This document shows positions 35,604 through 38,798 of a stretch of 64,000 nt of DNA, piece after piece (position 1 is the stretch's first letter; each line of letters opens with the position of its first letter). The notes below the pieces were generated by a model, which saw only the letters and a list, made by a program, of their open reading frames with translations, was not told the origin of the DNA and searched no databases. Position numbers and translations under genes: made by a program. The DNA lies in NCBI GenBank assembly GCA_012960035.1, contig DUBZ01000037.1, forward strand, positions 1 to 64,000, in the 5' to 3' direction. The stretch comes from Myxococcales bacterium (GTDB taxonomy: Bacteria; Myxococcota_A; UBA9160; UBA4427).

Positions 35604-36179
35604 TTACGCGACGTCTTCTGCGCTGACGACATAGATTTGATCGGGTGCGATCGCGCGCTCTGCGATGCCATCGAACTTTTCGCCAGGCCCAGCGTAGCTG
35701 TCTTCACACAACACGAGGCCTTCGTCATCGAACTCCCACACGATTAACAAACGCGAGCTGTAGAGATAAAGCGCGTCTTTGTCCGCAACTTCGACCCCGA
35801 TCATCCCGAGCACGTTGCCGGGATAGGCCATTTTGAGAACACCCTCGGTCGTAATGACGTCTTGCCCGACCGACATGCGTTCAATGTCGTGTTCGATGCG
35901 GTGGCAACCCGAGCCGACGATGCCCTGGTAGTAGGCCGCAACGCCGTCTTTGCCTTTGGGGCTCTGGGCTTCGTTCATCGCGACGTCGTCGGTCGCGTAG
36001 CTGTGATAGTGCGCGTTCGGAGAAACCGTGGCCATGAGGGCGTCGAAGTCGGCGACGCATTCAGACTTCGAATGGGCGATCAACGTTTTCAGGATGATCT
36101 GTCGACGTGGGTCAGCCTCGCTTGCGAGCAGCTGTTCGGACATCGCCCAGTTTTTGCGCGGGTCGATCACGTAGCCCAT
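35604..36179 (-). CDS. Nuclear transport factor 2 / SnoaL-like protein
   Basis: LMATVSPNAHYHSYATDDVAMNEAQSPKGKDGVAAYYQGIV. Confidence 0.75.
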   Translation of the reverse strand: MGYVIDPRKNWAMSEQLLASEADPRRQIILKTLIAHSKSECVADFDALMATVSPNAHYHSYATDDVAMNEAQSPKGKDGVAAYYQGIVGSGCHRIEHDIERMSVGQDVITTEGVLKMAYPGNVLGMIGVEVADKDALYLYSSRLLIVWEFDDEGLVLCEDSYAGPGEKFDGIAERAIAPDQIYVVSAEDVA

Positions 36180-36202
36180 GGAGGTCTCCTGTTTTCCGTT
36201 TG

Positions 36203-36213
36203 GAGTGATTCGA
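36203..36213 (-). promoter_or_regulatory. Repeated leader motif TCGAATCACTC, copy C
   Basis: Minus strand TCGAATCACTC-CAAACGGAAAACAGGAGACCTCC-ATG upstream of the 35604..36179 gene. Confidence 0.5.
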
Positions 36214-36306
36214 GAAACGACGTTGTTCCAGCAATGTTGCGCGAGCCACTGTTTTTTGCTCGCATTCAGTCGCGACTTCGTGAATCAGACTGCAGGCCAG
36301 CTCAAT

Positions 36307-36317
36307 TCGAATCACTC
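36307..36317 (+). promoter_or_regulatory. Repeated leader motif TCGAATCACTC, copy A
   Basis: TCGAATCACTC-GAAAGGAAACCC-ATG upstream of the 36330 gene. Confidence 0.5.
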
Positions 36318-36329
36318 GAAAGGAAACCC

Positions 36330-37064
36330 ATGCGAGATCAAAAGCCAAAACGCCGATCCCTTGAACTCGACGACTACAGCGGCCCCTTTCAGCCCGACCT
36401 CCACCTTTCTGATTTTTCGAAGGAAGGGCTGATGAAGCTCGTCGAAATCGGCGGGTCGATCTACGGCAACGTAAACCGGCAGTGGTACCGCGCGGCGATC
36501 AAACGCTTCGGCCAGGAAGTCGCCGACGAAATGCATCACGAAGTCTGGTTCGCCGACGGCGGGTCCGGCGATCACGAGAACTACACCATTTCGAAACTCA
36601 TGGGCTTCGAAGACGCCGACGACGAAACAGCCGCGATGAAGGTTTGGCAATGTCTGCCCGCGATGTCGACCCGCATGACCCTCGAGTTTGAATCCCGCGG
36701 CGACCATGAATGGGAAATGCACACGCCCCAGTGCGATGTGCCGGAAACCGGCGAACGCGAAGGCCCCGAAGTCATGGCCTACATGTGCGACAAGATCTGC
36801 GGTCACCTCGAACTATTTGGTTTCCGGCACGGGGCTGCACGTTGGAACGCCAACATTCGCATCGACCCCGAAAAACTTCCACCGCGTGCGAGCGACGAAG
36901 AACATCACTGCAGATGGCGCATTAAACTCACCGACCAGCGCACCGACTACGAAGCAGAACCGGGCCCATATGTCGAGAAACACGGGTTGCAGCGCGACAC
37001 CGACGCCGAGATTGTGAACCACGAAGCGGGGAAGTACAGCCAGAAGAAACCGTCAACGCGTTAG
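36330..37064 (+). CDS. Conserved hypothetical protein (possibly DUF6125-like)
   Basis: Start MRDQKPKRRSLELDDYSGPFQPDLHLSDFSKEGLMKLVEIGGSIYGNVNRQWYRAAIKRFG; RBS AAAGGA. ORF track start (35862) overlaps the divergent gene. Confidence 0.7.
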   Translation: MRDQKPKRRSLELDDYSGPFQPDLHLSDFSKEGLMKLVEIGGSIYGNVNRQWYRAAIKRFGQEVADEMHHEVWFADGGSGDHENYTISKLMGFEDADDETAAMKVWQCLPAMSTRMTLEFESRGDHEWEMHTPQCDVPETGEREGPEVMAYMCDKICGHLELFGFRHGAARWNANIRIDPEKLPPRASDEEHHCRWRIKLTDQRTDYEAEPGPYVEKHGLQRDTDAEIVNHEAGKYSQKKPSTR

Positions 37065-37075
37065 CGAGCCGGCAG

Positions 37076-37780
37076 TCAATCGGTTTTGAATTCGGCGGTC
37101 AGCTCGGGCCAAGCTTCGGGTCGCAACGCGCCGTACAAGAACAAGCGCTTGAGCTCAGCGGCGAAGCGTTCGGTTTCATTGCGCGCGACTTCCGGGTCGT
37201 CACTGCGTTGCCTCGCCATCAGCGACCATACCAGTGCCGACGTCATGCCGATCACGCCGAGCATTTCGGCATCGATGCCGTCTTGGCTCTTCGAACTGCC
37301 GGCCAAACGTTCGAGGGAGTCGACATAGCCAAGCCAACCATTCGGCTGAACCTGCTTTTGGGCCAGCAGGTCGAACACCCATAGGCGAGCGATGTCGGGG
37401 CGCTCGTGGAAGTAATGAACGAAGAAATCGATCTGTTCGCCGATCGCCCGTGGCTCGCGCAAGACTTCTTGTGTCTCTCGCGCAAAGGCCGCGCCCACCG
37501 CCATCAACAGCTCGTCTCTATTTTTGAAATGTTGATACGTCGTGCTTCGGTTGAGGCCCGCCCGCTTTGCCACCGCGGCAACCGTCAGCGCTTCGGGACC
37601 GCGCTCAGCAAACAGTTCGCGCGCCGCGGTGAGCAACGTCTTTCGACTTTGCTTGGCATCGCTGCGCAGCGCCCGAGCCCGGCCTGGCGGAGAATCCACG
37701 GCCGTTTTCCTCGCCGGCGGGGTCACGAGCGAGTCTCCCGTTTTGTTCGGCGTCGCTTTAACACGTTGCTCCTTTTGCAA
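37076..37780 (-). CDS. TetR/AcrR family transcriptional regulator
   Basis: KTLLTAARELFAERGPEALTVAAVAKRAGLNRSTTYQHFKNRDELLMAVG. Confidence 0.9.
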   Translation of the reverse strand: MQKEQRVKATPNKTGDSLVTPPARKTAVDSPPGRARALRSDAKQSRKTLLTAARELFAERGPEALTVAAVAKRAGLNRSTTYQHFKNRDELLMAVGAAFARETQEVLREPRAIGEQIDFFVHYFHERPDIARLWVFDLLAQKQVQPNGWLGYVDSLERLAGSSKSQDGIDAEMLGVIGMTSALVWSLMARQRSDDPEVARNETERFAAELKRLFLYGALRPEAWPELTAEFKTD

Positions 37781-37848
37781 TTTTCACGGACGTCGGTTTC
37801 AGCCCCGCACCACCCTCTCCGTCGGCTCAGGACCTTGCGGCTATTAAG

Positions 37849-37866
37849 TCCAACAACTATGTTGGA
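37849..37866. promoter_or_regulatory. Candidate TetR operator, perfect palindrome
   Basis: TCCAACA-ACTA-TGTTGGA (7-4-7) in the divergent TetR / enoyl-CoA hydratase intergenic region. Confidence 0.65.
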
Positions 37867-37934
37867 TCTAGCTTAACGGCTGCCGCGGAGATCACAAGCG
37901 ACAGTCGCCCACCCCAACGACTCGACCCAACATT

Positions 37935-38762
37935 TTGAGGATCCGAAGCTTGTCCGATTTAGACATCGACTCGGAAGTGATTTCCGTTGTGCGCGAAAAT
38001 GGTGTTGTCCTCATCACGTTGAATCGCCCCAACGTAAACAACGCGTTGGCCCCTCAACACTTTGCGTTGCTCGGGGAGACCCTCGAAGAAATCGCGCAGA
38101 CCCCCTCGGATCGCGTCGTTGTTATCACCGGCGCGGGCGGTGGCTTTTGTGCCGGCGCAGACCTCGCGAGTTCGGGCGGCGCCGCCGAGCGACTGGGCCA
38201 AGGTCCCATTGCGCGGGAACAGTGGGTTCGCGAACTCACGGCACCGGCCGTTGCACTTCATCGCTTACCCAAGCCAACCATCGCGGCGGTCAACGGTGTG
38301 GCGGCGGGAGGTGGCTGCAATCTCGCATTGGGATGCGACATCGTTTTCGCTGGCGAACGCGCACGCTTTACCGAGGTGTTCGTCAATCGCGCACTCTCCC
38401 TCGACTACGGCGGTAGCTGGCTGTTGCCCAAGTTGATCGGCTTGCAACGCGCAAAGGATCTCGCGTTTCGCGGTGACGTGATCGACGCCAATAAAGCACT
38501 CGAACTTGGCCTCGTGCTCGACATCATTCCGAACGAAACACTGCTCTCCCACGCGCTCGACTACGCGGGGATGTTGGCCGCAAAACCCCCGATCGCCCTT
38601 TCGCTCATCAAGACTGGCATGAACCGGCTAGCGAGTGCGTCGTTCGAAGAAGCGATTGAATGGGAAGCGACGGCACAGTCGACTTGTCTCGGCAGCGAAG
38701 ATTTTCGCGAAGCCATGCGCGCTTGGGCAACCAAGAGCGAGGGCAATTACTCTGGCAAGTAG
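37935..38762 (+). CDS. Enoyl-CoA hydratase/isomerase family protein
   Basis: NGVVLITLNRPNVNNALAPQH, GAGGGFCAGADLASSG, KPTIAAVNGVAAGGGCNLALGCDIVFAGE. Confidence 0.93.
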   Translation: MRIRSLSDLDIDSEVISVVRENGVVLITLNRPNVNNALAPQHFALLGETLEEIAQTPSDRVVVITGAGGGFCAGADLASSGGAAERLGQGPIAREQWVRELTAPAVALHRLPKPTIAAVNGVAAGGGCNLALGCDIVFAGERARFTEVFVNRALSLDYGGSWLLPKLIGLQRAKDLAFRGDVIDANKALELGLVLDIIPNETLLSHALDYAGMLAAKPPIALSLIKTGMNRLASASFEEAIEWEATAQSTCLGSEDFREAMRAWATKSEGNYSGK

Positions 38763-38770
38763 CGCCAGTT

Positions 38771-38781
38771 TCGAATCACTC
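38771..38781 (+). promoter_or_regulatory. Repeated leader motif TCGAATCACTC, copy B
   Basis: TCGAATCACTC-AAAAAGGGAAACACCAC-ATG upstream of the 38799 gene. Confidence 0.5.
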
Positions 38782-38798
38782 AAAAAGGGAAACACCAC

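Follow-up and report, generated by a model that had tools for sequence, protein, structure and literature searches.

Three neighbouring genes, encoding a SnoaL-like protein, the orphan P0001 and a hotdog-fold thioesterase, are each preceded by the same 11-nt sequence, TCGAATCACTC, and this raises the question of what the sequence does there and how it came to stand before all three. In the initial annotation a shared operator, a leader RNA element or a small regulon had been suggested. Three exact copies were found in the window (the whole 64-kb stretch of DNA analysed), at 36203-36213 on the minus strand and at 36307-36317 and 38771-38781 on the plus strand. The distances from the 11-mer to the ATG, 23 nt for SnoaL, 12 nt for P0001 and 17 nt for the thioesterase, are those annotated. 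A fourth exact copy is absent from the window, in agreement with the remark that no other gene there is preceded by the 11-mer. The 11-bp inverted repeat described between the divergent SnoaL and P0001 genes is also present, and is an automatic consequence of two divergent genes each having the leader in sense orientation. The genes and other features concerned are listed in Table 1.

Table 1. Genes, leader copies and TetR palindrome of the locus (window positions)
Feature	Position	Strand	Remarks
SnoaL-like protein, 191 aa	35604..36179	-	Pfam SnoaL_2, E 1.8e-5, slightly under the curated cut-off
P0001, 244 aa	36330..37064	+	Distant ATC_hydrolase likeness (PF14196, E 2.4e-4, below cut-off)
TetR-family regulator	37076..37636	-	TetR_N, E 4.2e-16; start uncertain, ORF open to 37780
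Enoyl-CoA hydratase (ECH)	37953..38762	+	ECH_1, E 1.1e-49; start uncertain, ORF open to 37935
Hotdog-fold thioesterase, 281 aa	38799..39644	+	4HBT, E 4.5e-11; TIGR00369, E 5.3e-26
Leader copy 1, TCGAATCACTCCAAACGGAAAACA (24 nt)	36190..36213	-	Before SnoaL-like gene; probable SD AGGAG downstream of the copy
Leader copy 2, TTCGAATCACTCGAAAGGAAACC	36306..36328	+	Before P0001; contains probable SD AAAGGA
Leader copy 3, TCGAATCACTCAAAAAGGGAAACA	38771..38794	+	Within the 36-nt ECH-thioesterase gap
Perfect palindrome TCCAACA-ACTA-TGTTGGA	37849..37866		Upstream of TetR, between TetR and ECH

A 24-nt block shared by three leaders

The A/G-rich stretch that had been noted behind each 11-mer is there, but its extent was understated, as the block shared by the three leaders is 24 nt long. 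In an ungapped 24-nt alignment the leaders of SnoaL and the thioesterase (copies 1 and 3) are identical at 21 positions, and the P0001 leader can be aligned to this stretch with a gap of 1-2 nt. The consensus reads TCGAATCACTC-N-AAA-N(0-2)-GG-(R)-AAAC, in which the 11-mer is identical in all three copies and the following 13 nt are variable. No similarity was found in the flanks or the coding starts of the three leaders, the likeness being confined to the leader. Each of the three ATGs has a Shine-Dalgarno (SD)-like sequence at a suitable distance before it (AAAGGA, AAGGG and AGGAG), and the shared block ends at or near it in each case. In the SnoaL leader the similarity runs through GGAAAACA, with the probable SD, AGGAG, farther downstream. 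Copy 3 starts 8 nt past the ECH stop codon, inside a probable operon, a location which suits an element acting at the level of the mRNA.

The reading frame of P0001 is open for 468 nt upstream of its start, giving a 400-aa ORF (35862-37064, plus strand) that spans the intergenic region and runs antisense to SnoaL; the P0001 orthologues start at the ATG at 36330 despite the longer open frame. Orthologues with 77-82% identity are found in three genomes of the family, and remote tandem-domain relatives occur in many other genomes, with a SnoaL-like gene as a repeated neighbour.

Regulatory sites at the locus and the TetR palindrome

It is possible, if somewhat unlikely, that the element is a locus-specific site through which the three genes are co-regulated, either as an operator or as an RNA element to which a small RNA or a protein binds. 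Three sites at one locus are typical of local regulators, and the 11-mer is invariant and has the same place and the sense orientation in the three leaders. SnoaL-like and P0001-like genes also adjoin elsewhere, convergently in G001 and, more remotely, divergently in G005, a recurrent adjacency which suggests that the pair may belong together functionally. Against such a site stand the lack of a palindrome in copies 1 and 3, where no dyad was found (copy 2 alone reads TTCGA-N5-TCGAA), and the lack of conservation in orthologues. The 11-mer is absent from the leaders of the P0001 orthologues in G037 (82%), G001 (78%) and G015 (77%), from those of the thioesterase orthologues in G001-G003 and G006 (72-74%) and of the thioesterase paralogue on contig C61 of the same genome (76%), and from those of the SnoaL orthologues in G031 and G033 (67%). 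The closest relatives have only about 72-82% protein identity, which limits this test of conservation. An RNA element is not supported by folding of the three leaders, which gave no significant structure (z -0.25, 0.43 and 0.79), or by an Rfam search of them, which gave no match.

The TetR regulator encoded between the copies was considered as the protein binding the 11-mer, and this was rejected, since TetR has a distinct, probable operator of its own. Recognisable versions of the palindrome in Table 1 precede eight TetR orthologues in genomes of the order (G001, G002, G003, G006, G007, G014, G024 and G030); examples, read by eye, are TCCAACACCGGTGTTGTA, CCCGACATGTATGTTGGA and ATCAACAACGTTGTTGAT. 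Judged from these sites, TCCAACA-N4-TGTTGGA is probably the site through which this regulator controls its own gene and a good candidate for that role throughout the TetR subfamily, and the TetR of the locus is predicted to bind TCCAACAACTATGTTGGA and not the 11-mer leaders. Upstream of the TetR gene the 11-mer is absent and the palindrome is found instead. Local TetR operators resemble the present case in being few and clustered around the TetR gene and its neighbours, but differ from it in that the 11-mer element is non-palindromic and missing before TetR's own gene. On present evidence TetR is not the reader of the 11-mer element.

A narrower version, in which a new leader element, read on the mRNA or the DNA and acquired after the genes were joined, would co-regulate the SnoaL-like protein, the ATC-hydrolase-like orphan and the thioesterase, is considered doubtful.

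Chance, promoters and the genome-wide search

The resemblance could also be a coincidence, in which unrelated leaders are alike through the A/G-rich ribosome-binding region, with an 11-mer shared by chance. In the sampled 1.5 Mb of the genome there are 188 11-mers that occur three times inside a 3-kb stretch, SD words of the AAAGGAAA type are frequent in the leaders of this genome, and the case was chosen after the fact. About 0.06 exact copies of the 11-mer are expected per 64-kb window (Markov orders 1-5). For a comparison restricted to leaders, 1,169 leaders of 60 nt each were taken from 1.5 of the 5.5 Mb (27%) of the same genome, with genes predicted by a simple hexamer-based caller. All were aligned against all, a neighbouring triple was defined as one within 10 kb, and leaders were shuffled among genes in the permutations. 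Among the 1,169 leaders, mutual alignment scores of at least 24 are reached by a single neighbouring triple, that of SnoaL, P0001 and the thioesterase, with observed pairwise scores of 31, 34 and 36. Such a triple arose in 58 of 1,000 permutations at a score of at least 24, in 1 of 1,000 at 26 or more and in none of 1,000 at 28 or more; with exact 11-mers alone it arose in 1 of 300. These figures are somewhat generous, the test having followed the observation and drawn on no more than 27% of the genome. In the SnoaL leader, moreover, some of the shared block lies outside the SD, which speaks against a likeness due to the ribosome-binding region. A shared element in the three leaders is thus statistically supported, and coincidence, which we consider unlikely, is not the favoured reading.

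It is very improbable that the 11-mer forms part of a promoter core (a -10 region or start site) for all three genes. The 11-mers do lie no more than 34 nt from the start codons and a CTG occurs 17-19 nt upstream of each copy, but by our own estimate chance alone would give this agreement in the CTG in about one of six such cases, a sigma-70-like promoter scan of the locus found nothing, and a general promoter element would show an enrichment in leaders throughout the genome, which was not seen.

Such an enrichment was looked for in the draft genome (5.5 Mb, 162 contigs; 96.65% complete, 6% contamination), in which gene starts are predictions. The 11-mer occurs 11 times in exact form against about 5 expected (Markov); the reversed word occurs 0 times, but it lacks CG and is hence not a composition-matched control. 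Outside the locus there are eight exact copies, of which predicted genes contain five and unassigned sequence two, while the remaining one precedes a start. This last copy (C68:4702-4712) is 20 nt upstream of the gene for a predicted membrane protein resembling a CDP-alcohol phosphatidyltransferase, and the AAA/GGAAA part is missing from it. A small RNA complementary to the 11-mer was also considered and rejected: two exact copies lie in no predicted gene, of which that on C70 reads as the SD and ATG of an opposite-strand gene, and that on C115 shows no sign of an RNA gene. In the 1,169 leaders, near-matches with up to two mismatches number 19 in sense and 15 in antisense orientation, and no clear enrichment is seen for sub-words of the 11-mer, whereas SD words are enriched. 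In 30 relatives the frequency of the 11-mer is 0-10 per genome. In six of them (G001, G002, G003, G004, G011 and G012) the surroundings of 40 exact copies were read, and not one precedes a start, defined as an ATG at 3-40 nt that has an SD and opens a frame of 60 codons. A literature search gave a single paper containing the 11-mer, on an unrelated subject (PMC4518504).

The annotation's suggestion of an operator, leader element or small regulon is therefore supported in part, as regards a shared element at this locus that may regulate the three genes, and fails with respect to a regulon beyond it and to conservation. A genome- or lineage-wide regulon or leader family, for which the 11 exact copies and the one ahead of the C68 gene might have spoken, is refuted at the sensitivity used, given the near-equal sense and antisense matches, the location of most other exact copies within genes, and the copies in relatives.

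Gene order of the locus and copying of the leader

The reading that we tentatively prefer is that the three copies represent one 24-nt ribosome-binding leader, which would have been copied within the locus while the gene cluster was being assembled; a locus-specific site and coincidence rank close behind it. The gene order in the window is DUF1214 (-), SnoaL (-), P0001 (+), TetR (-), ECH (+), thioesterase (+), MaoC (+), DUF3604 (+), and differs from that of relatives. In G002, DUF1214 is followed by thioesterase-MaoC-DUF3604 and the SnoaL, P0001, TetR and ECH genes are absent between them. TetR-ECH-ADH-thioesterase blocks occur on contig C61 and in G006, and the order in G003 is TetR-ADH-thioesterase-MaoC; in the window locus ECH and the thioesterase have no ADH gene between them. 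From these gene orders the locus looks recently assembled out of two ancestral blocks together with SnoaL and P0001. In the block on C61 (G000:C61:86644-90730) the MaoC gene is truncated or decayed. The 3' end of the ADH gene encodes ESIHSC as TCGATTCACTC, with one mismatch to the 11-mer; an origin of the 11-mer as a remnant of a lost ADH gene was considered and is unlikely, as the counterpart on C61 lies ~70 nt from the thioesterase start.

During assembly, genes that are apart in relatives would have been brought together into one cluster, and the leader may have spread by short-range copying, through recombination or template switching. The element would then be a transcribed segment of the 5'-UTR, directly 5' of the SD or overlapping it, and would support initiation of translation. 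The apparently recent assembly of the locus and the non-random neighbouring triple are consistent with such copying, as is a likeness extending over 24 nt and not just the 11-mer, which in SnoaL covers GGAAAACA though the SD is farther downstream. The leader is common only to the SnoaL, P0001 and thioesterase genes of this locus: when the 24-mer was searched with up to three mismatches, the trio was found in this genome and three scattered matches in 30 relatives, none evidently in a leader. Exact 11-mers elsewhere are near background level and outside leaders, and the closest orthologues have unrelated leaders. The thioesterase leader of G003 (TCACTACCCGAAAGGAAATCA; TAGCCCAGGATCTGTAGTCACTACCCGAAAGGAAATCAAGA) weakly resembles each of the window leaders (background fractions 0.013, 0.014 and 0.064), so that the thioesterase leader is conceivable as the source, but this resemblance alone is not significant. 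Other observations fit the copying of a leader less well. Random copying should carry flanks too, yet the similarity stops at the leader edges; the 11-mer is invariant next to 13 variable nucleotides, which could mean a constraint on the 11-mer; and the genomes compared are distant relatives with no intermediate among them.

Compared with known arrangements, the window leaders are like SD leaders of Gram-negative bacteria in having an A/G-rich stretch immediately upstream of the start codon (GGAAA, AGGG or AAAGGA), a signal that dominates the leaders of this genome, but they add an invariant, pyrimidine-containing 11-mer 5' of the SD, at this locus only. They are also like upstream sequences duplicated locally in rearranged clusters, where a similar short stretch stands before several adjacent genes in one genome; here, in contrast, the likeness is confined to the leader, and it is from the sequence that we infer the copying.

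Whether the element is a copied leader or a binding site, its effect would be local and would not reveal a regulon. As a binding site, it would link acyl-CoA metabolism with the orphan family P0001 and the SnoaL-like protein. Under the copying model, the locus would be a small, concrete case in which genes gain a common ribosome-binding leader as a metabolic cluster comes together, and would bear on how coordinated expression begins.
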